NCBI GenBank assembly: GCA_027922465.2
Contig: BQMF02000284.1
Span: 496,001-560,000, forward strand
Direction of reading: 5' to 3'
DNA from: Turritopsis dohrnii
Lineage: Eukaryota; Cnidaria; Hydrozoa; Anthoathecata; Oceaniidae
DNA: 64,000 nt
Both the position numbers and the translations under genes were made by a program. Below the pieces are notes generated by a model, which did not search any database, had not been told where the DNA came from, and saw only the letters and a program-made list of their open reading frames with translations. This document shows, piece after piece, positions 1,773 through 56,169 of this stretch; the first letter of the stretch is position 1; every line of letters begins with the position of its first letter.

Positions 1773-1861
1773 GTAAAATTTTGCGTTATTTATCAAATTT
1801 TGTATATATATAGGTTTTTTTAAAATCATTCATTTTCAAAATCTTACATCTTAAAATTGAG

Positions 1862-4800: not shown

Positions 4801-5386
4801 AGATTGCCTGGTGATCCAGTTTGCTGTTATATTGCTGATGAAGTTGATTGTGATGATAAGGACGAGCGACAAAATTATCCGCTTGATTTTTTAAATAGCA
4901 TCACACCATCCGGTATGCCTCCACATTGTTTGAAACTTAAAGTTGGAGCAATAATTATGCTTTTACGAAATTTGAACATCAAGAAGGGTCTTTGTAATGG
5001 GACACGCTTGATTGTTCGGGAATTACCGCATAACTTTATTAAAGCTGAGGTTTTGACAGGGTCAGCTGTTGGAGAAACAATTTTCATACCTAGGGTACAA
5101 TTGTCACCCTCTGACACAGGTATGCCTTTAACCTTTGAAACACAGACAACTGCCGATACGTTTGGCTTATTCTTTCACTGTTAATAAGAGTCAAGGTCAA
5201 ACATTTGAAAAAATTGGTTTGTTTCTACAACGACCGTGCTTTTCACATGGTCAGCTATATGTAGCCTGTTCTAGGGCAAAGGCATTGGATAATGTTAAAG
5301 TCAAAGTTGCTGCCACAGGTAAACAAGGTTACATCAATGGGAAGCTGTTTACACAGAATGTTGCCTTCCCACAAGTTTTACAGTAA
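1862..5386 (+). pseudogene. Helitron 1 Rep/helicase, exon 2, disrupted by one stop and two frameshifts
   Basis: Contains the Helitron Rep nuclease (HUH motif PHAHILIHL; tyrosine motif VKYLFKYVYKGH) followed by a Pif1-like SF1 helicase (Walker A GQAGTGKT, Walker B FLIDEAT, motif GGDFRQCLPVV, C-terminal NKSQGQTF and YVACSRA). Compared with Helitron 2 it has a premature TAA at 3008-3010 where a Tyr codon is expected, a one-base deletion near 4136 just after the Walker A region, and a one-base insertion near 5127-5135 before the last helicase motif. Walker A has Gln where Helitron 2 has Pro. All frames otherwise align closely, so the element was inactivated after insertion. The product would act in rolling-circle transposition: Rep nicks and joins single strands, the helicase unwinds. 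Confidence 0.92.
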
Positions 5387-8233: not shown

Positions 8234-10980
8234 CTACTCCACATCGGATGATTCACTTTCATTCCCTTCTACGTAATTTTGTTTTGTATGGTACAATTCA
8301 AAACATGGTATGACACAAAGACCAACATTACAAACACGGCACATATAAGTGGTATCTTTTCTTTTGGATCTTGCTTTGCAGACAACACAAGATATTTGAG
8401 CATTCTTCTTCTTTCTACATCCTTTATATCGGGAACTGAAGTGCCGTTCAACGAGACGAAGCGGTAAGGGGTGTGAATTCTTCGGACCAGTGCTATTATT
8501 TGTACGTAAACCAAAACAGTGGACAGTGATGATATCATTAATTAATTGCTTTCTGAATTCCAAATGACACAAAGGTTTCTTGTTTATACGTTCAGGGTTT
8601 AATTTCTTCCAAACGATGTAGGCGTTGTAAACTGCAACATCAAGAAAAAGTTCAGCCAGTTTACGGTACCACTTGACTCCTCGTTTTTGGGTGGAATACG
8701 GAATAAGTACTCCGCTAAGGAGGTCAACACCACCCATAGTTTTGTTGTAGTCCACAATGCAATCTGGCTTTGAGATGGCAAGGTTGGTGTGGCGGTCTGT
8801 TTTGGAGGTTTTTTCCAATTTGCCGGTGTGAATTTTTGACAACATGCTAACGATCTTTTCTTTTTTCGTTTTTGTTACATCGTTCCAACGCATGACCGTG
8901 ATTTTGTTGTTGAACTTCACCATTGGAGGATCCCCCTTGATAGGTTGCCAGTCCCAAAAATCAGACGGTAGGCCTTCTTTCTTGCGAAGAGTTCCAAAAC
9001 AATCAGTTTCAAACTTCACTAAGGCTTCAGCAAGTTCCGGTGATGTGTAATAATTGTCAAGCGTCAAACAATATCCTTTCTTGAGATATTCTTCACCCAT
9101 CAATGAAATGACAACTTTTGAGGGTGATTTGAAATCATCAAATGGCTTGGTAAGACTATTTTCCAGACATGGCTTATAAGTTGTGGTTACACCTGTGTAC
9201 ACCATAAATCTTGAGAGGTATGCGCTGTCACTTTCGCAAAGCATAAAAAGTTTGATACCATATCGCTCTCGCTTTGATGGAATATACATTTTGAATGATA
9301 ACCTGCCCTTCCACAAAGATAGGTACTCATCAATGGCAACATTTTGACCCATAGCGTAGTTTTTCAGAAACTTGTCAGACAAATAGTCAAAATAGAAACG
9401 TAATTTATGAAGTGAATCGTTTTCGTCAAAATCAACACACCTGGAAAAATGAATCATGGACCGTATTGCTCTAAACCGTTTGCGCGGCATAAGTCTTGAA
9501 AAGATAGGGGTCTGAAAGAAACCATCATTTGTCCAATATAAGTCAAGACTGGGCTTTTTTGTGATACCCATCATAAACAAAATACAAAAATAAATCCACA
9601 TTTCGTCCTGATCAACAGGTTTCCATGCCGCAATCAGAGATTCTTTGGTTTCATTGATTCTTTCTCGAACATTAGAATCGTTCTTCAAAATGTTTGCATA
9701 TTCATTGGTAAATATGACAATAGAATCAATAAGTTCATCTGAAAAGAAACTTTTGAACACTTCTAATTTACTGGTAACGTCTTCATACTGAACGTTTATT
9801 CCGACAGTCCCAGAGAAAACAAACTGTTGCCTGTCTTTTCGTCTATCTTTTCTCCACTCTAAATCTTCAGCAGTCTCTTCGATTGTTTGTGTCTTCTTCT
9901 TTTTCTTCTTCCCAGTGGAACTTTTATCTTTGCCAGCCTTATTGTTGGTGGTCTTTTTACCAGTGGAACCACTTTCCGCAGGGGTATTACTTCCCCATCC
10001 ACGTCCATGACCGACGTTGTCTCCGCATCTACGACCAGAGTTGCATCTGCGGCCACGGGCAGTACTTGGACGTCTAACAGTAGTCCCTCGTGCTCTACCT
10101 CTACCTTTTACTGGTCCTTTTCCTCGACCAAAGACACGTTTCTTTTCTGTTGATGAAGTTGATGGTTGAGATGGCGGTGGCGATGGTGGGTTGTCCGGAA
10201 ACTCCTCATCGGTCAAATCAAACTCATAATCACTTTCAGTGGGTTGCAGCTCTTCCAATGGTTCATCTTTACCATTTTGGTTAACATTTTCAGATGCAAA
10301 ATCCACATCAATGTCAGGGCCTGGTTTGGAACGAAAGAAATAATCTTTACGGGTACTGTTACGGGCACTGCTACTACGGTTAGAAGGTTTGTGTGGTTTG
10401 GTGCCGGTGACTTCATCTTGTGTTGATTCACTACCTCGATGCTTTTTTGCAGGAGGTTTTTCAATGGGAAGATCATTGTCTGGAACTGCAATTTCATTGA
10501 GAATCAACAGTTCAGTTTCAGCTACATTGACATCATCAAACTCAGAGTTACGTTCGGACGTTTCAGATTCAATAACAGTATCCTTGAACACTGCAGTATC
10601 GGTAACAATCGACTTCCCTTCGGCCTCTTGTTCTGACTCGTAATCATTAGGCAGACTCTCAGATGCATCACTCTCTCCACATGAGTCTTAGAAAAGAAAA
10701 GAAAACTTTTTAAGTAACAAATAGGTGCTAGGTTTAGCTGGAACCAGCTGGATAGTATGAATGACAGTCAAAAGACCCCTAAATTTTGGAGCTCTCAATA
10801 AAGCATTTTGCATCAAAACACACAAAATATGAAAATATAATACCTTCATCACTATTTGATTCTAATTCAGACTCATCAACATCAGTATCTCTGTCCAAAT
10901 TGTCAAGAAAGTCCTGAATATCTTGATCTCTCACAAAACGTTTTTTGCGGAGTGTAGCTTTTAAGCGGAACGGAGCTCAT
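8234..10980 (-). CDS. piggyBac-type transposase, two exons (possible 1-nt frameshift in exon 1)
   Basis: DDE transposase of the piggyBac superfamily, which cuts and pastes DNA at TTAA sites. The main exon is 10686-8234, after a TTTTCTTTTCTAAG acceptor. Counting from the GTG at 10591 (785 residues), the three catalytic Asp lie in AIDEYLSLWKGR (421), TLDNYYTSP (512) and GGVDLLSG (623), and a C-terminal Cys-rich finger (C735, C738, C751, C754, C759, C763, H768) is present, as in piggyBac. The N-terminal 250 residues are acidic, then Arg/Gly- and Lys-rich. A first exon at 10980-10844 fits: ATG at 10980, donor GTATTA, phase 1 into the main exon. Its frame is continuous only if the six-T run at 10941-10946 is five long; the related copy at 16,350 has five. 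So this is either a one-base frameshift or an assembly indel. Confidence 0.9.
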
Positions 10981-13257
10981 TTGGCAAGATCAAATATTGT
11001 CATCAAAATACTAACAGAGAGATGCATTTCGGCTGAAACTCGATGAAACCTCCTACAGGGTCATACAAAAAGTGCAATTTGGCTCACTTACATCAGATTT
11101 CCCAAGTAGAATTCACTCAGATAACACCTTGAATGCGCGAGCAAAAAAATTTTCAAAGTATGGCTTTTAGGCAAATTTTTTCCCGTTTCTACGGTACATG
11201 GAATGCTTACCAAAATGCAAAGTTGTCATTCTTAGTTAGAGTTAAGTAGACATTTTTCCCCTTTCCCCGGGAAGGCTTTGCTTTGAGGTTTGTTTCTGGG
11301 AAACCAATACCTTCAATGTAAGTTGAGGATGAGAATAGATTGTTTGTTGACCTTTTTGACAATCTCTTATATTCTAGAAGTAAGGTTTCTATACTTTTTA
11401 AAGCACACTAAAATTATTTGTTGACTGAGCATCAATAATGTGCTTTACAGCTGTGCTGTGTGCTAGTAGGAATATCCATACGATCCAAACGTATTTCTTA
11501 TCCATTCCTTTTGCTTCTACGTTTCAGCTATTTTTATTTAGCCTTTTGTGTTTTTTGAACCACTGGCACAAGAAAGAATTTATTTCCACACAACAGACCG
11601 AACTAGTCAACACAACATCATTTGCTGCATTCAATGAGACCACTTTTACACCACAAAAGTTTGTTAATTGGTTCTTAGAGATTTTGAATTCTTAAGGCTA
11701 GTTGGAAATGTAGCGTATTAGGCTTTACCCTCTGTTTGGGGTAGTAGGATATATATATATTTACAGAAAAAAATTGACCTTGATTATTTCTATAATGTAA
11801 TCCACTCAACAAAAATCAAAACAGCATACATCATAATGGAATTTGAAAGGGTAAAATCTGTGTCACTTTGGGTAAATAATCAATCTATTAGGTATTTTAT
11901 TAACCATAAGTTTTTTAGTAATAAAAACGTGAACATTCAATTATTATTTATTTTACGAAACTTTTCCTAAGTATCTCTTACATCTTCAGATTATAATACA
12001 CTGTTGTACAGTTATTATTATCAAATTGAACTGCTTTACAATAAAAAAATGTAAGCAACATTACCTACCTGTAATGGCAGAAAATTATTGTCTGATTTGC
12101 CATTCAATATACAGCAACTACATTGTAGTGTTAGAATTTACAACATTTGGGCAGGTGAAACTTTATAACATGTTTTTGTCAAATGATAATGTAATTTTCA
12201 AAATTCTTTAAATGAATTAGATAACTGAAAAGTAAATCAATAAATTGGTTTTTCTATAACTGTACTCCTTGGTGTTACTACTTGGGTTCATTCTAATAAT
12301 ATAACATTACATAAAATGATTTTACTTAGGAAAAATCACATTAATAACTTAATCATTTTGTGAATGGGAAATTTTATGTTCTTATTGATTAATATGTTGT
12401 TTTACTATTTCAGGTGTATACATATCACATTATCAATGTATGAATGAAAAGGAAATGTATAATTGTTGGGCATCTCGTGCAATTGAAATGGAAGGGCTGA
12501 ACCAAAGATAGGAGTAACTAATGTCAAAGTGAAGTGTTGAGCATTAACAGCCAGTGTTAAAAAATAATACTCCGGAAGCATTCATTCAAAGATATCTTCA
12601 GTGACAATTCATTTGAAAGGAACGACACATTAAAGCATGTTTTAAATTGAATTTTCTTTGACTTTTAACTGAATGTTGATTGTCATCTCTGGGTTAATGT
12701 AAACATTTTTGGAAAAAGTTTGGAATATGCCTGTTGTATTTCTTGTTGGTTTCAACTTCCTGGTCTTCTTTATTTGATAATATTTGAGTGTGTATATCTA
12801 CTATTTACGCAGGATACTTTTACAACTGTGAGTGTCAAAATTTTTTGAATCTGTACTTATGTATGAAAGAGCTGAAAATTATTGATTCATAAAGTATTTT
12901 ATTTTATTTTGTTATTCCTTCTCTTTTCCATCTCCATCTCACGTTCACATAATCAAATTCTTAAAAAAAAGCACTATCAGACTTTAAACCCAACCACATT
13001 TTGACTATTTATATTTTGATATGCTAGTATATACTTGATAATAAGTTCTTCATACATGAAAGTTGCTATGGGCTACTGTAATTTTCATCAAATTACCACA
13101 TCAAAACGAGGCGGGAGTACAGTTTGGTAAAATTTCTACATTTGAAATAATATACGGGAGTATTTTTAATAGCAATATAACTCAAAAGTACATTGTATTG
13201 ATAGGCTTACATTGCATTAATTATTTTGCCAATAAAAGTAACATTATTTTGGTTTGA
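10936..13257 (-). repeat. Left arm of a 5.4-kb palindrome (piggyBac upstream region)
   Basis: This stretch is the inverted, diverged counterpart of 14,166-16,355. Matching landmarks are the outer ends (GCGGAGTGTAGCTTTTAAGC here, its complement at 16,330-16,350), the block with CCGGGGAAAAATGTCTACTTAA (here inverted near 11,245-11,275, there at 16,050), the block near 11,760-11,850, and the block at 13,078-13,130 (ATTACCACATCAAAACGAGG) against 14,305-14,330. The outer end coincides with exon 1 of the piggyBac gene, so the arm is at least partly the transposase 5' region. No other gene is seen; short open frames at 11,438-11,695, 12,026-12,211 and 13,063-13,257 are not convincing. Confidence 0.75.
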
Positions 13258-13789
13258 TATGGATACGCATTCACGCACACAGTTACGAATTTTACTCGCT
13301 CGGTTTGTCTTTGTCGAATGAAAATCCGGCTTTCACGCATTCGATATTGTCGCTGGCGAACGGGTGATTACACGCACCCACTCCGCAAACCTTATATATA
13401 TTGTTTGCAGCCATCTTGCAGATTGTAATAAAATGTAACTGATTTCTCCAAGCTCTCTCAGTTAAAAAAATCTGTTTTGACTTGCCCAAAGTACTTGTTA
13501 TTCATTCATACGGCTTTTAGGAAGAGTCTCTGATACATGACTTTTAGTAAAGGGCGCCATATAAGCCAAATTACTTGCCCAAAGTAGGCAATGTCAGAAA
13601 ACGTAAATTTACGTAGTTGGCGATCGCTTAAAACGTAAATATACGTAGTTGGCGTGGTATCAATATATAAGGTTTGCGGAGTGGGTGCGTGGAATCACCC
13701 GTTCGCCAGCGAAAACATGGAATGCGTGAAAGCCGGATATTCCTTCAACAAATTGAATGCATGAATACGCATATCCATAACTGAAAGGG
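13258..13789. mobile_element. Foldback element at the palindrome centre
   Basis: Arms of about 130-150 bases in inverted orientation: TATGGATACGCATTCACGC... at 13,258 pairs with ...GCATGAATACGCATATCCATA ending at 13,789, and the inner ends pair as CACCCACTCCGCAAACCTTA (13,378-13,397) with its complement at 13,669-13,688. The loop (about 13,405-13,660) holds a direct repeat ACGTAAATNTACGTAGTTGGCG at about 13,602 and 13,634. There is no coding capacity. It looks like a MITE/foldback inserted between the two large arms. Confidence 0.75.
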
Positions 13790-13797
13790 CGCTATTT

Positions 13798-14157
13798 CTT
13801 TTTCGCACCCCCTCTTAATCTACCTACCTTAGGCCGACTTTTTTTGCGTCAGTAAAATTTTGTGAAAATGGATGAACATGGATTTAACGCAACCTAATTT
13901 TAGCAAATTACCCCTTAATTACGGAGAATTGCCAGTAGGTAAAATAAAAGTTTTGCTAAAGTTAAATTTTCCGCAACTTAAATTTAGCGAAAATATGCTC
14001 ATTCGATGCAAAAACAGTCGGCCTAAGGTATCTGCCATATTTTTTTACTGTGTTGGCTCTTCATGATGGAGATAAAAAATTACCCAAACCCTAACCCTTA
14101 ACTCAGACCCTAAAACATCCTGGATGGAGAATGGGGGTGCGAAAAGGAAATAGCACC
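13798..14157. mobile_element. hAT-like MITE with 8-bp target duplication
   Basis: A 360-base element flanked by ACTGAAAG on both sides (13,790-13,797 and 14,158-14,165). Its ends form inverted repeats: GGCGCTATTTCTTTTTCGCA on the left and the complement of GGTGCTATTTCCTTTTCGCA on the right. An 8-bp duplication with short TIRs is the signature of hAT elements. A second inverted pair lies inside (TACCTTAGGCCGACT near 13,826, complement near 14,014), so it may itself contain a nested foldback. It has no transposase, so it depends on a partner elsewhere. Confidence 0.8.
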
Positions 14158-14165
14158 ACTGAAAG

Positions 14166-16355
14166 AATATATATATGTAATTTTTGTTAGTTTTCTTGAT
14201 ATTGTATCCTATCAATGTATCCTATCAATGTAATGTACATTTTAGTTATATTGCGATTCAAAGACCTTATTAATTCAAATGTCCAAATACCAAACTGTGC
14301 TCCCTTGCCTCGTTTTGATGTGGTAATTTGATGAATATTATCAGAAATTGGCCCATTAGTAATTTTCAGTTATGAATAACATAATACTAAGTAATGTCAC
14401 AATATAAAAAATCAAAACAAAGTCGAATTTGATAATCTGATAATGTGTATTCAAGTATTCGATTTTGTCAATGTGGGATGGAGATAGAAAAGAGAAGGAA
14501 AACAAAATGCTTCATGAATCAATCATTTCCTATTCTTTTGTGCACTGCATAAGTACAGATTCAAAAAATTTCTGACAGTCATAGTGGCAAAAAGAGCATG
14601 AATAAAGATGACCTATTCTAAAAAACCCAGCATTTTCAAAAGCATAAAGAAGCACTAGGAAGTAAACCAACAAGAAATACATAACAGGCATCTTCTAAAC
14701 TTTGCCAGAATGTTCAGGTAACTTAACCCCAACTTTAAATGTCAATCAACAAAATTCAATTTATATACATTCTTGATTCTTGAATCTGTCCATGTTTCTT
14801 TCAAGTGAATGATGAAAAACATTTTTGAATGTTTCCTGATAGTATTAGTCTCTAACCACTGGAAATGCCAGACACATCACACTTGTTACTCCTGTCTTGG
14901 TTCAGCAGTTCCATTGTTTCAAGTATATACAGCAGATATTCCACGACCATAATAGTGATTCGTCTTTAATTCATTGATTTCAATTACTCTTGATAATGCC
15001 TTATACACCTAAAATTAGTAAAACCAACAAACAATTCATTCATTCGCGATACTGAAAGTAATCAAAATCATTTATATATATTTAACAATTATGTAATTAT
15101 ATCATAATTATATATATATTTTTAGAAATAACTCCAGTATATAACATCTAAAGTTATAACAATTACACAAAAACATATGTAGCTCCACTCCTTGTAGTGG
15201 CTTCGGCCTTGAGTGGGGTGAGTGATTAAAAAAAAACCAAAAATTAACTGATTTATTTCTTTACTCTTCATTGTTGTTTATTTTTAATTATCTTATCCAA
15301 TTAAAGAATTCGTAAGCTGTATATAGCTATTTTACCTTCAGTTATCTCTCACCCAGGCACATGTATAAATTAAATGTAAATACTAAACAGAGTTTACTGA
15401 TATTGAATTCCAAATCAGAGAATATTTTTCAGTATAGATGGATATATATATTGTTTACATTTTTTGTTGTTAAACATTCCAATTTGATCACAAAAGGCAA
15501 CTAAGATTGTGTATTGTATATACTCTTTTAAATAGACAAATTCCATGTTGACGTATACTCTGTTTTGATGTCTCATTGCATTGATTTAGACATTATTAGA
15601 AATTATCAAAGCCAATTTTTTCTGCACACACATTCCCTGTCAGCATAAAAAGTTTATACGAAACATGCAAATCATTTCCCATGAACAATAATAAGCTTGC
15701 AATAAAGAATTCAAAATGGGTAGTAAATCTCTAAAAGGGCCTATTATTATGAATAACATTTTGTGGGACGACAAAAGTAACATTAGATTTTATCATTATC
15801 ATTGGACTTTTATGTCTTGGTTTGTGTTGTGTGTGGAAATAAAAACAGTTAAGTGGATCAAAATACAACACCAACTTGAATAAACATGGCTTAAAGATAA
15901 AAACGAATGGAGAAGAGATAGCAGTTTTTTATTTTATTCCTCACAGATAGATACACAGTTTGTGAGCAAAGATGCACAACTTTCAGAAGCTTTGATCTAA
16001 ATTTAAATTTAAGAAGTTCATGACAAACTTCAGAGCATTCGGAATATTCCCGGGGAAAAATGTCTACTTAACTCAAAAAAGCAACTACTTTGGCCTTCCC
16101 GCTACCGTACACATCGACAATTTTACCCTAAAGCTATACACTGAACACTTTTGGGCTTGATCAATCATATTAATATCTACATCGCAATTTGCAAAACTTA
16201 AAGGTAAGCGAGAAAATTGAGATTTTTGGTATGTCCTGTAAGAAATTTCAGCGATTGACGGCAGCCGAACGCATCTCTCTGTTATTATTTTGATGACAAT
16301 ATTTGATCTTGCCAAATGAGCTCCGTTCCGCTTAAAAGCTACACTCCGCAAAAAG
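14166..16355 (+). repeat. Right arm of the 5.4-kb palindrome, facing micro-exon gene 1
   Basis: Inverted homologue of 10,936-13,257. It ends with the piggyBac-like start ATGAGCTCCGTTCCGCTTAA (ATG at 16,316) and CAAAAAG at 16,349-16,355, where similarity stops. Five A's here, against six in the left arm, keep the short frame MSSVPLKSYTPQK in register. Because it is inverted, any promoter in this arm would drive transcription rightwards into the micro-exon gene. The rest is AT-rich with no coding exon that I can support. Confidence 0.7.
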
Positions 16356-16441
16356 TTAAGGTGCCGGCTGTTAACTGCTATATTTCATACTGAAGAAATG
16401 TAATCAACTTATATCACATGATATGTTCATTTCTTCTTTAG

Positions 16442-16610
16442 GTGGAGTACAAGTCCCAAGTACAAGTACAAGTTCCCGTCGTGTACTCTGTTGCCATGAA
16501 TTGCGCATGGAAAATCACGAGCTTTTAGTCAATACAACACATCTCCATAGGCAATTCATGAACCAAAAGTCAGGGCATCTCTTTCAAAGAGATATATTTG
16601 CAGTTTAGTA
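16442..16610 (+). other. Upstream exon of micro-exon gene 1 (shared with gene 2)
   Basis: Begins after a TTTAG acceptor with GTGGAGTACAAGTCCC and continues for roughly 150 bases. The same sequence, with the same acceptor, occurs inverted at 25,619-25,500 upstream of micro-exon gene 2. One frame is open here (GGVQVPSTSTSSRR..., 16,423-16,608), but the matching frame in the second copy is interrupted, so I treat it as a probable 5' untranslated exon. Its 3' boundary is uncertain; a GTAATG donor at about 16,607 is possible. Confidence 0.5.
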
Positions 16611-16691
16611 ATGTAGTATCTTTAGCATTATTTTTGTAGGAGTTGTAAATTTTATGAAATTTTTATTTCATTTTAGTACTAAAAAAATATA

Positions 16692-17993
16692 ATGGCTGCA
16701 TCCAACAAAGATATCAGTAAGTTGTACATTTTTACAGAGATTTTGTTCTGCATTTAAGTTATTTGCATTCTAATAAATATATCTTCCTCCTATATTTTAG
16801 TATTTGAAAAAGAATGTCATGCAAGTAAGGTTTACCTTATTTACTTTCACCTTTTTTCGTTAAAGAATATACATTCTTGGTTTTAACTGCTTTTGTTTTT
16901 AGAGTTGGACCAACTTGAAAAGAAAAACACAGGTATGCAACTTAAGCATAACTAAATTCATATTACGAAATCATGTGAATGTTTCATAAACATTTTATTT
17001 TTTAGTAATGAAAAAGGTTAAACGGGCACAGCCCATACAAAAAACCCCTACTGGTAAGCTTTCTATAGCTAGATATAATTATTTTTATCTACCTTTTAAT
17101 TCTTTTCTTTATATAAGGGTACAAGCATACATATATTAATATTTCGACTGAAGCCTTTTATTCAAATGACTCCTTCTTTCAAATGTTATGGGTGTAAATA
17201 AATATGCATATATGTTTTTAGCTGTTGCTACAAAAACCAAATGTGTTGATAGTGAGTTTTCATTATATTCAATCAATGTTCATTTACATGCAATATTGTA
17301 TTGTATTGTTTTCTGCCATTCCTTGAGCATTGATGAGGTACGGTAATATCTCTTTTTCAGATCTAATGGATGTGGATGCGTCCACTGCAAATAGTAAGAA
17401 GAGTGCAAATATTCGTATTTGGAATGAATGCGTATTTTGCCTGAAGCTTCCTTCGCACAATTTCAACTGTTATATTCCATATGTTTTTAGATGTTGGAAA
17501 TTCTATGCCGAGTGGAAGCCATGATAGTAAGTTTACGTAACTGCAGAAGTTTTCATTTTACAACGCATTTAAAATAAAGACTTTCCACTGACATATTCCT
17601 TCTGTTCTCCAATAAATAGTTTATAGTTATAGTTATTGTTTATAATTATACAGTTATAGATACCGTAATCTTTTTTTAGATGTTGTAATTCTAGATGATA
17701 CCACCAACAGTTCTAACAGTAATAATTTGTTTGTCAATTGTATCTCCTAGAATAATCTATTATTTTGATAAGTTTATTATTGTTTTTATTTAGACTTAAC
17801 TTTCGTTGATTTGGCGAGATATCGCGAAAAACATCCGGGCTCAAAATCTGAACGTGCATTCAAGGTGTGGGCCCGGAATGGCGGAAAAGACCACCCAGGT
17901 TATGTGCCACCAAAGCACAAAAATTTTAAAAAGAATAACAAAAATAAATTGTTAAATAATATTATAAAAATCTTAAATAATTCTACGCTGTAG
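16692..17993 (+). CDS. Micro-exon gene 1 (nine exons, all introns phase 1)
   Basis: Family not recognised. The exons are 16692-16716, 16801-16824, 16903-16932, 17006-17053, 17222-17251, 17361-17393, 17491-17526, 17680-17718 and 17794-17993. Exons 2-8 are 24, 30, 48, 30, 33, 36 and 39 nt, all multiples of three, each with a T-rich ...TAG or ...CAG acceptor and a GTAAG-like donor. Every junction falls after codon position 1, so any internal exon could be skipped without a frame change. Spliced as listed the frame is open for 154 codons. The first exons are Lys/Glu-rich, the middle ones Ser/Thr/Asn-rich; exon 8 encodes VVILDD, resembling a SUMO-interacting motif. The last exon encodes HPGSKSERAFKVW and GGKDHPGY, then a basic Lys/Asn tail. 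The same last-exon domain ends gene 2 at 23.6 kb. It lies downstream of Helitron 1 in the same orientation, before a Helitron 3' terminus. Confidence 0.75.
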
Positions 17994-18109
17994 GAATAAG
18001 CGATTAGTATAATAAGATAGATAAATATAGCGAATAGTTTAGAACATACGATTTGAAACTTCTTTTTTAAGTGATTTAGAATAAGTTGTGCAATTCCTAC
18101 AGCGTAGAG
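17984..18109. mobile_element. Small foldback element at the end of micro-exon gene 1
   Basis: CTACGCTGTAGGAAT (17,984-17,998) is repeated as a perfect inverted copy, ATTCCTACAGCGTAG (about 18,094-18,108), around an AT-rich 95-base centre. The gene 1 stop codon (17,991-17,993) lies inside the left arm, so the last three residues of the predicted protein derive from this repeat. Confidence 0.6.
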
Positions 18110-18552
18110 TTAGTTTGTTGTTTATCAGTTGGAGAATATATAATGTTTTACTATCAATTTTTGTCTTTTCTTAGTTTAATTGACATGATCCACTAAAGTT
18201 CACTGTGATTTTACCAATGTGAATCAATATCATTTCAAAATGTCTAATTGAAACATTATTCTGCATGTGTTGATATAGAATGTTGATCATGATTGTTTTT
18301 TAGTTTGTAAATCGTATAAATAACCTGATGGAAACATTTTAAAATCATGCTGAAACTTTGCTGCCTTGAAATTACATAAAATTACCGTCAATTGGTAAGT
18401 AAAATTGAGTTTGTCATTATATCTGAAATATATGAATACTACGTAGATTGTACAAAATAAGACGTCTGTTTTCTTTTAGATCGGAAATAACGGACCATTT
18501 ATATCGTCAATGATGTAGCTGACTTTTCGGTTAGAACTCTTATAATAATGTT

Positions 18553-18697: not shown

Positions 18698-18712
18698 TAA
18701 TAGTAATAATAA

Positions 18713-20942
18713 CTAGTATCCCGGGTAAAAACTTTTTACCGAACTTAACTTCGAAAAGAATGGGTCAAAATCGCCTTTCCCGTGAACGATCCCCGTGACG
18801 AAAAAATAAATCATAGAATCGCAACTCAAAAACATCCCAGGCGGCGTCGCTCGCCACCCATGTTCAGTATGCGTTGTGTTGCAAACTTTAACTCGTGTAA
18901 AAGTTTCTAAAGGCATTAATTTTTTAATTCATTTCTTACATTCAGAAGATTAAAAACAGAAACAAATAGCAACATGGCTCAGAATAATATATTTATACGC
19001 AGAAGAGAAGTAACTTTAATGTAAAAAAATGGCAATATATAACACAGAACTGTTTACCCAGACATACGAAACCAAACATTACAAAATGTTAATTCAAAAC
19101 AAATTGATACCTTCCAACTTTTTCTTTTGTTCCAAAGTTACTACTCCACTGCAACCATTAATGAATTTTTGAAATGATATGTAGTCTGTTCTTCCCAAAA
19201 CCATCAACGTCATGATTAAAACCATGAATTTCATTTCTTTATGCTTTTTTTATTATTACCTAAAAATTAATACTTGAATTGTAATACCAAAAACCTAATC
19301 ATGCTATAACAATATTAAAATAAAAAATAAAACAAAAAGAAAGAAAAAACAAAAAGAAAATTCAAGTACGCATTTATCCTAAAGATAACAATTAAAAACA
19401 AAATTTGGTCTATAAAGTCAACCGATACTGTGAGTCCATACGGGTTCACTCAACACTGGAGCTGAACAGAATAAAGACTTTTACCTGGCATACACAACCA
19501 AACATCAAATTAATCAAAACAATTGAAACAACAAAATGCCCTACTTTGACCAAAACCATAATTGAATACCCAGAAGATATTAAAAGCAACAAATAAAAAC
19601 ATAATGCTAAACTTATATACCTAGCAAGTATGTATGTAGCAATTAACATAACACAAAATAATGAATGTCGTAAACAAATGTAAACTGAAGAAAAATATAC
19701 CCCAGCAATGCTTCTTTTTTGTAGTACAATCGCAATGAAATACATAATCCATTCTTCTCTTATATAACCTTCTCAACATACCATGTGTTTCATTTATACA
19801 TTTATAAATTTCGTTTATAAATAGCTACACTTTTTCTTTTCTGACCTAAAAGAAAAAGATTTCATTCAGTAAAGAACAGCTACAATACTTACTACTACTG
19901 CAACCATATTTAAGCAAACCAAAACAAAAGGCATAAATGGCTGGCAGAAAGGCATGCAGACAAAGCATCAAACATCGTCAATAGATACAATTTGACAGCA
20001 TAACACGATCTCTACTTCCACAGCCATGAGAAAGGAAAACAGTCATAGCTGTGGGACCATTTTTAATTGATCTGTAAATAAATAAATCAAATCAAATCTT
20101 CTTTGCTAACTATAAAAATAATAATAGCGTGCGTTACCAAAACAAATTACTCTCGTCTTCGTTTTTCATCCAGTAGCATATAAACTAAACAAAATAACTG
20201 ATATAATAAGATATCCATTCAAAGCTATAGTATTTAATCTTTCAAAACTAAATTAAAACCATTCCTTACTGTGTAAATAAACATCGTTTTATTCTGCATT
20301 TCTTCACTACACTTTCTTCTGTATAGCGATATTTGATAACTAAAACGTAAACAAACATTTAAATACATTTAAATACAAATACATGTTTCTAACTTGTTCT
20401 TTTATTAATCAAAAATAAAAGTTTTATAATAATACCTTTCGTTCGTTCGATCTTTCTGCAGCTAATTTTCAAAAAACTTCACTGCACTTCTTCTGTATAT
20501 CTAATATGATTTTTCATTGTAAACAAACGATAATAAAACGTTTTATAATAATAACAATACCTTCGTGCATACAAACCTGTGTGCCTTCGTCAGTTCTTTC
20601 GTCGATTTGCTGCCTTAAACAATCAAATTTAAATTAAAATATTCGTATACAAAAAGAAACACGTCTTCTTCGCGAAATGATCGTTGACAAATTTCGAACG
20701 ATTAACATTGCATTGCTCGCACTCCTCCAAAGACGTTTTTCGGCTGATTTCCACTGCGCAAACCAAAAATAACAAAACGGAGGAGCATATACTAATCGCG
20801 GAAAATCAAAAAAAGTGTTCTCGCTCTATGTGGTTTTACGACAAAAAGGGAAAAAATAAGAAGGGTTTGACCGTGAAAAAACCCAAATATGTCACTCTCT
20901 AAAATAAAAGTGTGACACACAACGCAAATTAGTATAATAAGA
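18713..20942 (-). mobile_element. Non-autonomous Helitron A (2.2 kb)
   Basis: On the minus strand it starts TCTTATTATACTAATTTGCG at 20,942 and ends with hairpin GGTAAAAAGTTTTTACC, then CGGGATACTAG at 18,713. These are Helitron termini: 5' TC, 3' hairpin plus CTRR, no TIR. The 5' end resembles that of Helitron 2 (TCTATATATACTAATTCGCG), so Helitron 2 is a candidate helper. It is about 90 percent alike, by eye, to element A' at 59,571-61,726. It has no Rep/helicase but contains remnants of a short-exon gene. Confidence 0.85.
19446..20740 (-). pseudogene. Short-exon gene inside Helitron A (start codon lost)
   Basis: Counterpart of the gene inside A' (60,277-61,518). The first-exon ATG of A' is ACG here (about 20,734-20,736) and part of that exon is deleted. 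Other exon blocks and their splice signals remain: the block near 20,446-20,471, the 48-nt block near 19,889-19,936 (begins CCATTTATGCC, donor GTAAGT), and a long hydrophobic frame at 19,745-19,446. A 30-nt block near 19,125-19,154 (TAACTTTGGAACAAAAG..., donor GTATC) is also conserved between A and A'. Function unknown. Confidence 0.4.
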
Positions 20943-21940
20943 CTAGTATCCCGTGTAAAAACATTTTACGGGTTTATCTGAAAGTAACGTCTCAAAAATG
21001 GTGTCGAAAAATTAAATCACAGCGTGACGAACAGAAACGGTGTCAGTGCTGTAAGTACTTTAAACTTTAAATATAAGAACGCAGAACAGTCGAAATACTT
21101 GGAAGATCTTAAACCCATGAAAAATAAAAATACGCGCTGTGCATCGGCTTTTTTCACTCTGTGAAGTAAATTGATTGAAGATGCAATGCAATGGTTCCCC
21201 GTGATGAAAATACTTAACGTCAATACATAATACGGAAAAAAACACTTCTCACCCTATTAATCGAAAATCTCTAGGTATTCCAGCCAAAGCATTTTTAGTT
21301 CAACACTGGAGTTATGAACAGTAAAACTTTTAAATCAGAAGATCTGAAACACTTCAAAATATTCATAATAAATCTTTCACGATACGATATATGCAGTAGT
21401 AAAAATAAATTGTGCGTACAGGTAAACAACAAAAAGATTAAAATCGCTGTAACCATTTCATGGAATCCACACCCCAATGTAAATAAAAGCCAAACGGGAA
21501 AGTCGTAAAAGTGTCGAAATGTGAATTAAAAACAATTGCGATTTTCTTTACGAACCCAGACCGTCATGATTAAAAACCATGATATTCATTTCTTCAATCG
21601 CGTATTATTTGAAAAGTAATGATGCAGAAACCATATTAATACTATAAGAAGAAACAAAACAAACAAACAAAAAAGTTCTAAAGCGGACTTACCCTAAAAA
21701 CATTAATAAATCTTTGCGCAATACTTTCGTTGTTGTCTATTGTTTCTTGATCTCGCGAATAATCGAAACATTTGAAACAATTAAATACAATGCAATGTTT
21801 TCCCCTATACTAATCGTAGAAAAATATTAACCGCCGTGGTCTGACACTCCATTATGAATAAGTGACCGCAAAACCGACCCGAAATTTTAGAAAGTGAAAG
21901 CGTGAAAAAAGCGGATGCACACTCGTGATTAGTATATAGA
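20943..21940 (-). mobile_element. Non-autonomous Helitron B
   Basis: Its 5' end (TCTATATACTAATCACGAG) is at 21,940 and its 3' end (hairpin around GTAAAATGTTTTTAC, then ACGGGATACTAG) is at 20,943. That 3' end directly abuts the 5' end of element A with no base between. The body contains the family landmark GTCATGATTAAAAACCATGA near 21,561. No gene is supported. Confidence 0.75.
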
Positions 21941-22034: not shown

Positions 22035-23608
22035 ATATTTTCTGGAAAGAACCAAACTTTATACTTAGGTATACAAAGTAGCTTTTTATAACTACACCTT
22101 ATTCTTAAATATACAAAACTACAATGATGAAGAAATTGATACCTTCCAGTGATGATTCTTTCCACTAATGCAATATCAGAATAACAAATTCTTTCAATGA
22201 ATATAATAATCTTCACCAACAAAACCAACATCATGATTTAAACCATGACATTCCACTGCAACCATCTTATTATAATATTAACCTAAAAGAATATATTAAA
22301 AGTCCATGAAAATAAGGTTCTGGCAATGTCTGAGGTAAAATGAGTGGTACAATAATACAAAAGATTCAGGTTTCGTAGAACAGCAACAGAAATTCCCATA
22401 AATAATTCAGATTTAATAACCATAAGATAACATATATAATATCTTAGTATCACACATCCCACCAAAACTTTTTCAAAAACCCTGTTCAAAAAGACCTGCA
22501 TCCAAAGGTTTTTACAGGTGCTAATAAAGAATGCATGTCTGTTGTAGTAAGCAAAGGCATATATTTTATAAATTATTACTTATTGCAATACAAAAGTAAA
22601 ATAAAATATGTTCATTAGAAAGGTGTATTAAATAACGTTTTGATTAAGCATTAACCATTTTCTACGACATTTAAACAGCCATTTCATACATCATCGAACT
22701 GTAAACTAAGTTGGTGAGGTAACGATAACGATATTATTTCGAACTTCGCATAGACAAACTGTTTGATGAAATAAATATCATGAGCAATGAGTACGGAGGT
22801 TGTCTGCAATAATTTGTTGCTGCCAATCTGTAAATGTAATCAAAAAATAAGTTGTGAGTAGAAACAAAATAAGCTTGAATGATGAGTTTGAATTTGACTC
22901 ACCATTGTTTCCCTTCACATCTAAACTAACTGTAAACATCTGAATATCTTTATAATGTGTCTAAACCTATAATCATCTACTGCATGCAGAGAACAAATAA
23001 TCATGTTAAGGCAGCCTTATAAACTGATTGGAAACTAAGCTGTTAATCTTTATTTACGATGACAAATGCCACAACATTTAAAAGAAAGAAGAAATACATA
23101 TGAGATGACACTCAATTAATCATATCTGTAACCCAGTGTGCAAAATCATCAAAGAATCACTGTGATGGAGAGCATCCTCAGTGAAAATGTGTAGATTTCT
23201 TTAGAAATGCACTCCTACGCAGATATTTTTTAATAAATGTGCTGACTGGGAAAGAATATTTTTAAAATTTTAAAATTTCTGTTCGACACTAATGCAACAC
23301 TAATTGATAGAGTGACAGACATAACTAAACACAAATCTTAGGTTAGTAAATTGACAGTGTGAAAGCTAGAATGTTAGGATATTGTGATTAAAGAGGTAAT
23401 GATAGAGCAAATGAATTTGTAGAAAATAACTTTATTCTCATCAAAACTAAAATAAACTAAAATACCCTCATCAGTTTTCTATTCATTTTAGTGAGTCTAT
23501 GTAAAGAAAGTCAAATGAAAATTTTGTAATGCTCACGCAAAGGTCTAGGAACTCACTTTAATGAATAGAAAACTGATGGGGCAAAAGCGTTAAAATTATA
23601 CTGGTTAA
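22035..23608. other. Helitron-derived and 3' flanking sequence of micro-exon gene 2
   Basis: No coding exon supported. Segments near 22,125-22,260 (AAATTGATACCTTCCA; CATCATGATTTAAACCATGA) and 22,500-22,525 resemble the interior of Helitron A, so the left part is another degenerate family member. The right part is the 3' flank of gene 2 and includes a strong inverted repeat at 23,466-23,581. A 3' terminus for Helitron 2 was looked for here and not found. Confidence 0.45.
23466..23581. ncRNA. Candidate hairpin RNA or small foldback, 31-nt arms
   Basis: CCTCATCAGTTTTCTATTCA and what follows at 23,466-23,496 pairs with an almost complete inverted copy at 23,551-23,581, with two or three mismatches and a 54-base loop. 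The size is compatible with a pri-miRNA-like hairpin or a tiny MITE. It lies about 30 bases beyond the gene 2 stop codon. Nothing in the sequence decides between the two. Confidence 0.35.
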
Positions 23609-25447
23609 TTACAGGCACTGCAGTTGGCACTGTAGTTGCCAGTGTAGTGCCTTGTAGTGGATTTTTTTTTTGTCAGAATGTTTCCACATAAATTTGGGAT
23701 GGTCCCGACCCCCAAATCTCTTCCACGCTTTAAATGCCGCATTAGATCGAGGGCCGGGATGAGTCTTCCGGTACTCCCGAAAGTCTTTGTACGAATCTAC
23801 AATATATAGTTGAAATAATTTTTATTAGTGGAGAAATAAAAAGGCTTATATTAGAATTGATCAAATACTTTAAGGGAAACTTACATTTCCTTTTATTTGC
23901 CAGAACAGCAGCTAAAAAATTGAAAAATGTACCTAAGACACAATTCTTCACCAATGTTACGTTAACATTGGAATTGTAAGAAATATTACCATTAGGTTTG
24001 GCGGATGATGATGGTAGTTCAGCTAAAAGAAATGTATAAGTAGATTGTGAAAGTCATAACATATGAAAAGAAAATGTTAATGTGTATTGACTCTTACTAT
24101 CAGCTGTTGGTAAAGCGTTATCTAAAAGAAAGGTTTAAAAAGTAGCTGTCATACAAAAGGAAGATAAAAGAAATGGAAACTACAAAGTTATGTCAACTAA
24201 AACCCTTACTATTTGCCACATTCGGCATGTTATTGGTATCTAATGAAGGAAATCATGAAGTTATAATTACAGAATGTCCAAACATACATCATAGACAAAG
24301 GAGTATAAATAGATAGATTGTGAAAGTCATACAAAATAGAAAGAAAACATATATTGACATGTATTGACTCTTACTATCAGCTGCTGATAAAGCCTTATCT
24401 AAATAAAGAAGGTTTAAAAAGTAGATTTCATATAAAAGAAAGACAAAAGAAATTGAAACTACAATGTTATGTTAATACAAACCCTTACTCCTTTGCCACA
24501 TTCGGCGCGATATTGGTATCTAATGAAGAAAAGGACAAAGTTATTATTGCAGCATAGAATAGGTCCAAACATAAACAAAGGAGTAGATTGTGAGTCATAG
24601 CATATAGAAAGAAAATGTTAATGTGTATTGACTCTTACTTTACTAACAGCTGTTGGTAAAGCATTATCTAAATACAGAAGGTTTAAAAAGTAGCTGTCAT
24701 ACATAAGAAAGATAAAAGAAATTGAAACTACAAAGTTATGTCAACTAAAACCCTTACTCTTTGCCATACTCTGCACGCTGTTGGTATCTAATGAAGAAAA
24801 TCACGAAGTTATAATTACAGAATGTCCAAATATACATTATAGAGAAAGGAGTATAAGTAAGTAGATTGTAAAAGTCATAACATATAGAAAGGAAACGTTG
24901 AAATTTTTATTAATTCTTACTATCAGCTGTTCGTAAACCATTATCTAAGGAAAAAATGGTCCAGGAAGTAGCATATATTCAAAAATGTCATACACTGTAA
25001 CTCAAACAGCATGATTCAGCAGATGAAAAAAAAAGATAAAATTAATTGAAAACTCCAATAAAAATCCTTACTATATTCGATATTTTCACTGCCATCTGTG
25101 AAAATGAAAAGAAGATATTATATATAAGATGAGATATGTAAAGCAGATAAAAAATGCTATTGAGAAAGAATTTTTACCTTCACCAAGTAATTCTTTTTCT
25201 CACTCTGAAATGAAATCAATTTGCTTTGAGAATACTGACTACTTTCATAGAAAATAATCTAATATATTACAGACGAAATTGTATAAATGAAAAAACTGGA
25301 GTTATTTTAAAAATAATTTTTACCTGCACTAATAAATTTGTCTTCTGACTCTGAAATGAAATCAATTTGATTAGTATTCTAATGTCTCTTACAGAAAGTT
25401 TAAAAAAGTAATGTTTTACCGTTGCACACATCCATGGGAGTTCCCAT
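23609..25447 (-). CDS. Micro-exon gene 2 (14 exons, duplicated exon pairs)
   Basis: Paralogue of micro-exon gene 1; family not recognised. The exons (minus strand) are 25447-25420, 25350-25324, 25204-25178, 25095-25072, 24944-24921, 24787-24758, 24667-24644, 24519-24489, 24398-24375, 24239-24210, 24121-24098, 24022-23990, 23911-23885 and 23796-23609. Internal sizes are 27, 27, 24, 24, 30, 24, 31, 24, 30, 24, 33 and 27 nt, all introns in phase 1. Two exon types alternate: a 24-mer encoding N-N-A-L-P-T-A-D variants and a ~30-mer encoding N-T-N-x-x-P-N-V-A-x variants, from tandem duplication of a ~280-base unit. Exon 3 has an in-phase TGA and exon 8 is 31 nt; without both, 160 codons stay open. 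The last exon encodes HPGPRSNAAFKAW and GGRDHPKF, matching gene 1. It lies 630 bases downstream of the Helitron 2 Rep/helicase, same strand. Confidence 0.7.
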
Positions 25448-25499: not shown

Positions 25500-25619
25500 G
25501 ATAATATGGAGCATGCCCTGACTTTTAGTTCATGAATTGTCCACAAAGTTTACTTCATGCACAATTCATGGTAACGGAGTACACGGCGAGAACGTAAGTC
25601 AATGGGACTTGTACTCCAC
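25500..25619 (-). other. Upstream exon of micro-exon gene 2 (shared with gene 1)
   Basis: After a TTTTTTAG acceptor the exon starts GTGGAGTACAAGTCCC and contains ACCATGAATTGTGCATGAAG and ACTAAAAGTCAGGGCATG, matching 16,442-16,580 with small indels. Frames are interrupted, so it is probably untranslated. The conservation shows that genes 1 and 2 descend from one locus, including their 5' part. Confidence 0.5.
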
Positions 25620-25732
25620 CTAAAAAACAACAAAATCTACAGGTTGTTCATTAGGTACAAAGCTGCCAAACTACAGTGCCACAACAACTGTCATCAGTGA
25701 CTACAGCAATGGTTCACAGTAATACTAATGAG

Positions 25733-26045
25733 CCACAACATGTCTCAACAGTGGCGTAACTTACAGAAGAAGCCAAAACAACTGTCAACAGCAGCCACCA
25801 CTGTAAGTATTTAAGCTATTCCTACAATAAGCCACAACATGTCTCAACAGTGGCGTAACTTACAGAAGAAGCCAAAACAACTGTCAACAGCAGCCACCAC
25901 TGTAAGTGTTTAAGCTATTCCTACAATAAGCCACAACATGTCTCAACAGTGGCGTAACTTACAGAAGAAGCCAAAACAACTGTCAACAGCAGCCACCACT
26001 GTAAGTGTTTACTCTATCTTATTATATAACAAAATAAGCCACAAC
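25733..26045 (-). repeat. Three 99-bp tandem units, each carrying a 36-nt exon-like block
   Basis: The unit starts recur at 25,741, 25,840 and 25,939, a period of 99. On the minus strand each unit contains ACTTACAG followed by a 36-mer (TGGTGGCTGCTGTTGACAGT...) followed by GTAAGTTACG: a splice acceptor, an exon of twelve codons and a splice donor. The 36-mer is open in phase 1 as used by gene 2. A degenerate fourth copy is seen near 25,670-25,700. The array begins about 35 bases after the Helitron 2 stop codon. Confidence 0.8.
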
Positions 26046-26078: not shown

Positions 26079-29000
26079 TCACAGCAACACCTGTGGAAAG
26101 ACAACATTTTGAGTATACATCTTTCCATTAATATAACCTTGCTTACCCGTACTGGCAACTTTGATTTTAACATTACCAAATGCTTTTGCCCTTGAACAGG
26201 CAACATACAACTGTCCATGTGAAAAACACGGTCTCTGCAAGAACAAACCAATTTTATCGAACGTTTGACCTTGGCTTTTGTTAATAGTAAAAGAGTATGC
26301 CAACCGAATTGGAAGTTGTCTGCGCTTCAATACAAAAGGCATACCTGTGTCGGATGGTGACAATTGTACTCTAGGTATAAAAATCAGTTCCCCAACTGCT
26401 GACCCTGTCAAAACTTCAGCCTTAATAAAGTTATGCGACAATTCACGAACAATCAAGCGGGTGCCATTGCAGAGACCCTTCCTGATGTTCAGATTCCTCA
26501 AAAGCATAATAATAGCCCCAGCTTTAAGTTTCAAACAATGTGGAGGCATACCGGATGGTGTAATACTATTCAGAAAATCAACCGGATAGTTTTGCCGCTC
26601 TTCTTCATCGTCACACGCCACTTCATCAGCACTGTAATAGCAAACTGCATCTCCAGGCAGTCTGTCCAACACCTCATTATTAATGATCAGTGATTGGTCA
26701 TTTGTCGGGGTCAGAATGGCTGTGGTGGCATATTCGTGAGGTTCCAGTCCGTCGTACATAACAGATATAATCGAAGTATCTTTAGGAACAACACAACAAT
26801 CAGGAATTTCGATGGAACCTTTAGCAGGTTCGCTTTGTTTCGTTGGAAGTTCACCGTTACCAAGTTGCAACAGCCAAGTACAGAATTCTTGCTCTTCCGG
26901 TCTGGCTCTCATATTTTCAGTGAGAGAGTATTTCGACACTGATGCCCATAACACAGAACTGGTCAAGCAAACTTCAATAACATCGGTTGGCTTTGCCTTT
27001 TTCACAACCGGCAAACACTGACGAAAATCTCCACCCCATAAAAGAACCTTGCCACCAAAAAGTGCATCACTGCCACAAATATCCTTGAGTAATCTGTCTA
27101 CAGCATGGAAAATGTGCGTAGAAACCATAGTCGCTTCATCGATCAGAAACAGGTCGACACTTCGAAGGTATTCCGCATGTTTCGATGCTGGTGTTATATT
27201 ACATACACTGTTTTCTAAAACAGGAACAGGCAAACGAAATAATGAATGCAATGTACAACCACCAGACAGTAAGGTGGCTGCAATACCTGTATATGCAGCT
27301 GTAGCAACTCTCCAACCTCTGGCTCTACATGCTGCAATTACATAATTGTATGTAAAAGTCTTACCTGTGCCAGCTGGTCCATCTAGATAAAACAAAGTTT
27401 CAACTTGTGCTAAACCATTACGCACATTTGAAACTGCAGAAAAAATCGCATCTGCCACAACTAACTGCTGTTCGTTAAGCAGAGGCCTTACCTGGTCCGC
27501 CCTGTCAATGTAAATATTCACATCATCTTCTTCCTGAGCAACCTGCTGAACCAACTCAGGAAGATTAAACTGTGTTAAAGTCATACCAAATTGTCTCAGG
27601 ACATTATCAATATAACCCAAAACCCTTTGCTCTGCTTGAGCGACAGCCAATGTTCGAAGGTAGTCTTCGCACAAATTCCCCTTGAATGTATTCCACAATT
27701 CCAGAGGATTGGAAGGCTCACAGTGAGTCAAAATAGTGACAAACAGTTGTCTAAGCTGTCGGGGCATTTGAAATGTTGAAGCCTCTTCCAATGTATTGTG
27801 CCACTCTGCGTCATCTTGCAGAAGATGTCTGGCAATACATGCTTCTCGGAATGTGTCGTAAACCACTCCATCGTAAGTACGCAAATACTCGAAAGACGTA
27901 GCACCTGCAACATGCAACAACAAAACTCGTAGGAAAAAACGTTCTCCTTCTGATGGTCGAGCATTGTATAACCGAGCGACTATAGGCTTAAATGTTTTTT
28001 TTCGTTTCTTCCATTTTTTCTCTTTGCCATGAAAGACATAATGATACGGAATATTTGAGTAAAGATACTGCCGAGCATCAGGATCTTCTACATTCAGCTT
28101 AAACCATGCTGTAAGGTGACTATCATTCAATGCCCCTTCAGCAGCTGCCTCCTCTTCACCAGCTCTAAAATAAACTTGATGACGATCAGGTAAATGAACA
28201 GCTAATCTCTTAATAGTATGTGATTTTTCATGCATGGAAAATTCAAAAATTCTCCATAACGCTTCAGGTGCACTGACATATCGAGCGTCCAGATACGTTT
28301 TTATTTCGTCATGTTCCAAACGTTCATTAATCTCCACATTAGCACGATCATGTCCCTTGTAAACATATTTAAAAAGATATTTCACGCTCCTGATCGTGGT
28401 ACATGCTTCCAAATTTATGTGAGCATTATACTTCTTGGACAACCACGGACAGTATGGAACTACCCATTGATTATCTAAGTCCACATTTCTTACCCTCACT
28501 GTACGACCATTGTTACGTCTGCGATAGAGCGGATACCCATTTGCATTCATTTGGGTTGCTTCACAAAATCGCTTTGGAAAATCCTTGGTGCAGTTGCCAT
28601 CATCTCCCACACAAACTGCATTAGGGTTAGCATTCCCACAGGGACCATGAATCATACATGACTTGATGATATCATGAAGTTCTGGTTCCTGTTCAGGATC
28701 TGGTATTTCAGCAGAAATTAAGCTGTCAATGTCATCAGCATTACGCAGTTTGTCCTCTTGTGCTAAATGGATAAGAATATGAGCATGAGGTAAAGAACGT
28801 TTCTGAAATTCAATAACATACAAATGAGAAATGGCTTTTCCCAAAACACCATTTTTATTTATATCTTCCAAAAGGGCTTTTAATTTCAAATTGAAAACAC
28901 GTGTAATCAGGTCCGGACGATAATGTGCAGGCTCATTATCTAAGTTTTCCGTGATCTCCTTCCATTTCGGATTGCACGTAAATGTGCAAAACAGATCTGG

Positions 29001-33446: not shown

Positions 33447-33572
33447 GTTTGTTTACATTTCTTGTGTGAATGGGTTTTTAAAGTCAATTTTAAAGCTGGT
33501 TTATTTTACTTGGAGTTTAAACAAAAACATGGTTTTAATAAAACTTATTTTGTTGGTGTGAATGGGGTATTA

Positions 33573-40319: not shown

Positions 40320-40495
40320 CACTCAAGTGTTTTTGTATATAGAACATTTTCATTGGTTTCCATATTATGATGCACCGCAGTGGTTCATGCCACTAACCAA
40401 TTAGAAGTAGTTTTTTTCATGAAATTTATAGGGTCAAGGTAATTCGCGATCCTGTCTGGTCCTCTCCTGTCCAGTGCTGACGTCATCACTCTCAG

Positions 40496-56003: not shown

Positions 56004-56169
56004 CTAGCCGACAACTTTTTCTTGATCTGTCTCGGATTAACTCGGACTGGATCAGCTCTACGCCAATGAAAACTCATTTTGAAATCACGTGTTTTGTAAT
56101 TCATAATGGTAGATATGTTTTGCACGTGTAAATAAAAACAGTGAAAGTTGGAAGTTCCTCGGCTCAGCT

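Follow-up and report, generated by a model that had tools for sequence, protein, structure and literature searches.

In a 64-kb stretch of DNA (contig BQMF02000284.1, positions 496,001 to 560,000; hereafter the window, in which all coordinates are positions), we describe a gene whose body consists of a run of symmetric micro-exons, gene A, and a paralogue of it, gene B, on the other strand 5.6 kb downstream. The architecture of gene A is very likely that of a real gene. Together, A and B would represent two members of a fast-diverging, lineage-specific micro-exon gene family, in which each gene starts with a short ATG exon, continues with a run of small phase-1 exons that would encode a hydrophilic, probably disordered tail, and ends with a long last exon encoding a basic domain. 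Gene A had been pointed out in an earlier note on this DNA; what is added below comprises the paralogue with its exon units duplicated in tandem, the 5′ element and the hairpins at the 3′ ends.

Gene A (16692-17993, + strand) comprises nine exons, and its spliced frame is open for 154 codons up to a TAG at 17991-17993. All seven internal exons, 24-48 nt in length, are multiples of three and are in phase 1, i.e., they start at the second base of a codon. Likewise, all eight introns (73-168 nt) are phase 1 and bounded by GT..AG; exon 8 has a weaker donor. This is the layout of nine exons, symmetric phase-1 micro-exons and a 154-codon frame that the earlier note had proposed, and both the spliced translation and the GT..AG junctions agree with it. 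Whichever of the seven internal exons are left out (128 combinations), the frame is kept and stays open to the same stop. Exons 5, 7 and 8 have a 21-nt stretch across the acceptor in common (86%; repeat family D1), possibly an older trace of exon duplication of the kind seen in gene B.

The decisive support for gene A stems from gene B, in whose last exon the predicted frame is conserved. When gene A was searched in translation against the window, the last-exon domain came up a second time, at 23794-23687 on the - strand, with 47% identity over 36 residues (E 1.3e-8). Over the 36 aligned codons, first, second and third positions agree in 21, 22 and 12 cases, respectively (positions 1 and 2 versus 3, Fisher p = 0.014), while the two other frames yield residue agreement in only 6 of 35 and 7 of 35 positions. 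Independently of the splice model, this is evidence for the predicted frame being the coding frame, and by this comparison the last exon of A and B is under protein-level constraint. Estimates with YN00 gave a non-synonymous divergence (dN) of 0.73 and a synonymous divergence (dS) of 1.13; with NG86, dS was not computable, as for saturated sites. A third copy of the domain was not found in the six frames of the window using a two-sequence profile (next E 0.47).

Phase compatibility had been put forward in the earlier note as something that chance cannot easily produce, an argument that proved overstated when phase alone is considered. Chains of micro-exons were scored with splice-site weights that are consensus values, not trained on the source species, and with per-exon penalties of 6-14. 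At the permissive penalty of 6, in-frame chains of 6-11 micro-exons also appear elsewhere in the window, and the best totals outside A and B (54.1, 53.7 and 52.6) lie close to the 55.4 of gene A, whose own permissive chain adds one spurious exon (16442-16465) and leaves out exon 8. Chains through gene B reached 65.1, 83.0 and 108.4, the last of these with spurious exons in the neighbouring Helitron. Such chains, equally long or longer, speak for the idea that the AT-rich DNA has produced gene A by chance as a mere string of sites resembling splice sites. Under stricter scoring, gene A ranks first in the window at penalty 8 (41.4; followed by 31.4 inside a Helitron gene) and at penalty 10 (26.6; next 20.2, which is gene B), with a slight lead at penalty 12 (14.0 versus 13.6 for a two-exon chain inside a Helitron). 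None of 300 dinucleotide shuffles reached gene A, the respective values being 26.6 versus a shuffle maximum of 9.8 at penalty 10, 14.6 versus 7.2 at penalty 12 and 6.3 versus 5.4 at penalty 14. The strict chains contain 6, 5 and 3 exons at these penalties, the one at penalty 10 corresponding to exons 2-7 without exon 8. Gene B was not reached by any of 300 shuffles at penalties 10 and 12. These shuffles and, above all, the paralogous last exon conserved in the predicted frame speak against a chance string, which we regard as barely credible; the claim of the earlier note stands in substance.

Gene B (25447-23609, - strand) has 14 exons and the same phase as gene A. It begins with a 28-nt ATG exon, and between this and the last exon are twelve internal ones measuring 24-33 nt. 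Eleven of the twelve internal exons are divisible by three, in runs of 6 and 5. Micro-exons 5-11 represent two exon types that alternate in tandem units of ~269 bp (3.3 copies, 77% matches), and exons 2 and 3 form a further duplicated pair. Judging from these repeats, part of the micro-exon array of gene B arose by tandem duplication. In the mechanism we propose, the array would grow by tandem duplication of exon-intron units, and copies that gain a stop or a frameshift could be skipped.

Since the internal exons of gene A are all symmetric and in one phase, the domain would survive the omission of any combination of them, and the gene may thus make many tail variants of one protein. That gene A does vary by exon skipping, as its frame permits, appears somewhat likelier than that it does not. 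Alternatively, the micro-exons could be real but constitutively spliced, the small exons being a mere outcome of duplication that gives rise to no variants. Splice sites are good through most of gene A and nothing in the sequence displays skipping, as this alternative would have it; on the other hand, the internal exons of A are all symmetric and of one phase, and two micro-exons of gene B, when included constantly, would terminate the frame or shift it, unless gene B is dead. Constitutive splicing is a possibility to be taken seriously, even if not the one we favor. The explanation we favor, to which we give about even chances, is a micro-exon family in which exon skipping changes the tail of a protein that is small, basic and probably nuclear.

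The protein predicted for gene A (154 residues, pI, the isoelectric point, 9.8) and the one for gene B without exons 3 and 8 (160 residues, pI 9.5) are both hydrophilic, and their last-exon parts have a pI of 10.5 and 10.1, respectively, in keeping with the basic last-exon domain reported for gene A in the earlier note. The common domain reads approximately YR..HPG..S..AFK.W.R.GG.DHP, followed by lysines, and was modeled by AlphaFold2 as two helices either side of the HPG turn plus a C-terminal helix. No hydrophobic N-terminus was seen in A or B. For gene A, the absence of a signal peptide noted before is borne out by a best 11-residue hydropathy mean of 0.19 within the first 45 residues, and in both genes an in-frame stop lies upstream of the ATG. 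A basic product without a signal peptide is therefore most likely intracellular and probably nuclear. The constant domain would bind nucleic acid or chromatin, and the tail would vary its partners.

Several observations weigh against a family of this kind. The nuclear, nucleic-acid-binding role is a guess drawn from charge and short basic runs alone, and the N-terminal tails differ in charge, with an acidic pI of 4.7 in B and a nearly neutral one of 7.8 in A. The AlphaFold2 model of the domain is modest, with a predicted local distance difference test (pLDDT) value of 71 and a predicted template modeling (pTM) score of 0.37, and a Foldseek search against the PDB with this model returned 0 matches at E <= 10, hence no solved fold. 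Exon 3 of gene B carries an in-frame TGA and exon 8, at 31 nt, is out of phase. With full inclusion the frame of gene B breaks at exon 3, and skipping exon 3 leads to a stop after exon 8; of the 4096 internal-exon subsets, the 1024 that lack both of these exons stay open as far as the common stop, and none of the remaining 3072 does. Gene B is therefore either decaying or spliced around both exons, and may be a decaying pseudogene. Moreover, a phase-0 reading of the gene B micro-exons, open through exons 2-6 and 9-13, outscores phase 1 (33.6 versus 29.1 at penalty 10); phase 1 is preferred because it runs on into the conserved last-exon frame and matches gene A. At penalty 14, 5 of 300 shuffles matched gene B. 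Finally, a comparison of exons and introns gave no sign of selection on the duplicated micro-exons of gene B, with 129 of 156 exon and 520 of 643 intron positions matching when summed over three unit pairs (p = 0.65).

Searches for relatives were carried out at the level of sequence and structure. In a set of 5.8 billion proteins, no match at E <= 10 was obtained for the gene A protein, the alignment of A and B or the last-exon alignment, with 35, 222 and 1 candidates screened for the three queries, respectively. Pfam returned just three sub-threshold families for the gene A protein (best E 0.0057) and none for the two last exons, and among PDB sequences there were five weak matches to gene A (best E 0.057) and one to the last-exon profile (E 1). 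Pattern matches in viral contigs (587) and prokaryote contigs (131) included no relative; as these two collections hold viruses and prokaryotes only, absence there says little about animals. The two helices around the HPG turn recall, to our eyes, HMG-box or YABBY-like helix pairs. Pfam, Foldseek and profile comparison were all without a match, with a two-sequence profile and a modest model that confer low sensitivity. The resemblance to YABBY was dropped after a profile comparison with a single YABBY sequence gave no match (probability 0.3%). The family had not been recognised in the earlier note, and the profile searches of the last-exon domain in the protein set, Pfam and PDB likewise gave no accepted relative.

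In both genes the ATG is preceded at a distance of 15 nt by a good acceptor, and an in-frame stop separates the two (TAA in A, TGA in B). Translation would therefore have to begin in the ATG exon, and no upstream exon joined at this acceptor can supply a signal peptide. The position of the acceptor suggests an intron in the 5′ untranslated region or the addition of a spliced leader. An upstream block common to A and B is 81% identical over 79 nt and 96% over 27 nt, in contrast to the third codon positions of the last exons, which agree in just 12 of 36. The consensus fold of this 5′ element contains 30 pairs, of which 24 are unchanged, 3 are changed on one side and 3 on both, with none broken. 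In control experiments covering 26 of the 30 pairs, 51 of 500 shuffles and 0 of 6 slid versions performed as well. With two sequences and this number of shuffles, the hairpin is suggestive only. The fold energy is unremarkable for A (z -0.75) and low for B (z -4.43). A covariance model detected no further convincing copy of the element in the window (E 0.11, being the opposite strand of B's, 2.3 and 9), its 27-base pattern had 0 matches in viral contigs, and Rfam gave nothing at the gathering cut-off across the window and nothing at E <= 1 over 16350-16720.

At their 3′ ends, both genes are accompanied by a hairpin. These are two of only four spaced hairpins in the 64 kb, compared to a mean of 0.6 in 20 shuffles at the same score; their coincidence with both gene ends was noticed post hoc. 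The remaining pair belongs to an inverted-repeat region at 13.3-14.0 kb, and a second program recovered the same four plus five self-overlapping palindromes. The hairpins of A and B are unrelated in sequence. Downstream of the gene B hairpin there is an AATAAA at 23436, while a search of 710 nt beyond the stop of gene A gave none. The 3′ hairpin and the conserved structured 5′ RNA element may have a role in controlling micro-exon choice. Only tentatively do we offer the wider picture, in which the micro-exon design would have arisen for an intracellular, probably nuclear family with a constant basic domain, a combinatorial tail and, in the RNA, a structured element at the 5′ end as well as a 3′ hairpin, which maybe control micro-exon use.

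Table 1 Coordinates of gene A, gene B and their associated elements in the window.
Feature	Position	Strand	Remarks
Gene A conserved 5′ element, possible long-hairpin fold	16439..16580	+	two-sequence alignment, consensus fold
Gene A exon 1, ATG	16692..16716	+	25 nt; acceptor 15 nt upstream, in-frame TAA between
Gene A micro-exon 2	16801..16824	+	24 nt
Gene A micro-exon 3	16903..16932	+	30 nt
Gene A micro-exon 4	17006..17053	+	48 nt; basic stretch KKVKR
Gene A micro-exon 5	17222..17251	+	30 nt; acceptor and start like exons 7 and 8
Gene A micro-exon 6	17361..17393	+	33 nt
Gene A micro-exon 7	17491..17526	+	36 nt
Gene A micro-exon 8	17680..17718	+	39 nt; weaker donor
Gene A last exon, basic domain	17794..17993	+	200 nt; stop 17991-17993
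Gene A 3′ hairpin	17975..18115	+	23-nt arms, 95-nt loop; 5′ arm contains the stop codon; z -4.32
Gene B conserved 5′ element	25511..25622	-	alignment with gene A element
Gene B exon 1, ATG	25420..25447	-	acceptor 15 nt upstream, in-frame TGA between
Gene B micro-exon 2	25324..25350	-	27 nt
Gene B micro-exon 3	25178..25204	-	27 nt; diverged duplicate of exon 2, in-frame TGA
Gene B micro-exon 4	25072..25095	-	24 nt
Gene B micro-exons 5-11	24098..24944	-	tandem-duplicated units of ~269 bp
Gene B exons 5, 6, 7	24944-24921, 24787-24758, 24667-24644	-	
Gene B exon 8	24519-24489	-	31 nt, out of phase
Gene B exons 9, 10, 11	24398-24375, 24239-24210, 24121-24098	-	
Gene B micro-exon 12	23990..24022	-	33 nt
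Gene B micro-exon 13	23885..23911	-	27 nt
Gene B last exon, domain in common with gene A	23609..23796	-	
Gene B 3′ hairpin	23466..23581	-	31-nt arms, 54-nt loop; begins 28 nt past the stop; z -8.06

The window is dense with mobile elements, and only ~0.6 kb separates the start of gene B from the stop of a Helitron helicase gene encoded on the same strand. Moreover, A and B each have hairpin-like sequence close to their two ends, reminiscent of the ends of mobile elements. The family could accordingly belong to a mobile element, be carried along by one, or represent a domesticated DNA-binding protein of a transposon. Against this stand the lack of any Pfam match for the domain, with just sub-threshold ones for the whole protein, and the lack of common sequence between the 3′ hairpins of A and B. 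In addition, the repeats found by self-comparison around gene A end at 16354 and resume at 18701, and the Helitron-to-Helitron similarity ends at 26078, before gene B. Within the window, neither common termini nor a transposon protein domain were found for A and B. A mobile origin of the two genes is thus unlikely in our judgment.

In the surroundings, 13 of 23 open frames of at least 110 residues were scanned with Pfam, and most of those that could be named are mobile-element genes. The sole likely host gene among them is a DAN-domain exon at 40432-40857 (+, E 3.3e-13), by which the window is probably of animal origin. Three Helitrons are present (783-5184, +; 26079-30568, -; 34926-38857, -), the first two of which are 78-82% alike in DNA. 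Transposase genes were assigned to DDE_Tnp_1_7 (8234-10687, -) and DDE_Tnp_4 (32424-33452, -, and 57513-58814, -), which we take to be piggyBac and PIF/Harbinger, respectively; frames with MADF and BESS domains (56113-57150) lie beside the second DDE_Tnp_4 transposase. Between the 5′ end of the piggyBac-like transposase gene and gene A, an imperfect, interrupted inverted repeat extends from 10942 to 16354, with matching stretches between 10942-13399 and 13663-16354 and almost identical outermost ~70 bp; this may be a mobile element whose inverted ends are very long. A 2.3-kb repeat (18701-21017 and 59557-61804, 89% identical) begins 0.7 kb past gene A, and related pieces occur elsewhere in the window, e.g., at 39.9 and 55.4 kb. 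Between gene B and the Helitron gene, nearly identical 99-bp repeats (25727-26011, 2.9 copies) each contain a 36-nt stretch between AG and GT. A signal-peptide-like reading of these repeats, made by eye, was set aside, since the strand it relies on is T-rich and an in-frame stop precedes the ATG exon. An endonuclease frame at 51791-52630 (+) probably belongs to a long interspersed nuclear element (LINE), and its DIETCPGP resembles a 2A-like motif. At 42526-43029, a 249-bp unit is present twice (96% matches), perhaps as a short interspersed nuclear element (SINE); we took it to look tRNA-like, and ARAGORN called no tRNA.

Two kinds of gene with a comparable design have been described. For flatworm micro-exon genes (MEGs), the working definition in the excerpted text of one study asks for at least 7 exons, at least half of them micro-exons of <70 nt divisible by 3, and a run of at least 4 (PMC7653826). 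Gene A, with 9 exons and 7 micro-exons in one run, falls within this definition, and so does gene B, with 14 exons and 11 of 12 internal ones divisible by 3 in runs of 6 and 5; the exon counts of gene A thereby agree with the likeness to flatworm MEGs drawn in the earlier note. As far as the sections drawn on here go, all MEG products have a signal peptide and MEGs are apparently restricted to platyhelminths, and a stretch resembling MEGs occurs in VAL-6, whose group lacks signal peptides (PMC4350168). A discussion of the origin of flatworm parasitism, likewise cited from a portion of the text, lists micro-exon gene organisation among the proposed gains (PMC4398949). In contrast to MEGs, A and B lack a signal peptide, as judged by hydropathy and upstream stops, and possess a constant basic last-exon domain.

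The second kind, the bicycle genes of aphids, phylloxerids and scale insects, is characterized in the excerpt considered by many small internal exons, nearly all starting at codon position 2 (PMC9168663), and both exon phase and small internal exons are as in A and B. The bicycle classifier considers nothing but gene shape and had a single aphid as its training species. With its published coefficients and a cutoff of 0.72 (PMC9168663), gene A scored 0.991, and gene B, with exons 3 and 8 left out, 0.9998. According to the same excerpt, bicycle homologues often, though not always, have signal sequences and CYC motifs (PMC9168663). A and B differ from them in lacking a hydrophobic N-terminus. They contain 2 and 3 cysteines, respectively, with no tyrosine between the two of A; judging from these counts, CYC motifs seem unlikely. 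As its design is like that of MEG and bicycle genes but comes without a signal peptide, gene A was assigned to neither.

One could still argue that A and B encode secreted products like those of MEGs or bicycle genes and that their signal-peptide exon went unrecognised, as the gene structure fits both kinds. However, the in-frame stop between acceptor and ATG in both genes, the N-terminus that is not hydrophobic and the basic C-terminal domain make this highly improbable. In the literature found by a weak search, partly swamped by unrelated papers, no third animal group with symmetric micro-exon genes was named, and those described encode secreted or host-interface proteins of flatworms and sap-sucking insects. 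If our reading of A and B is true, the same anatomy would occur here without a secretion signal, and the design would not be tied to secretion. The duplication of exon pairs in gene B would then allow the birth and decay of micro-exon arrays to be studied directly, and, if the source is neither a flatworm nor an aphid relative, A and B would represent a separate occurrence of the design shared by MEGs and bicycle genes.
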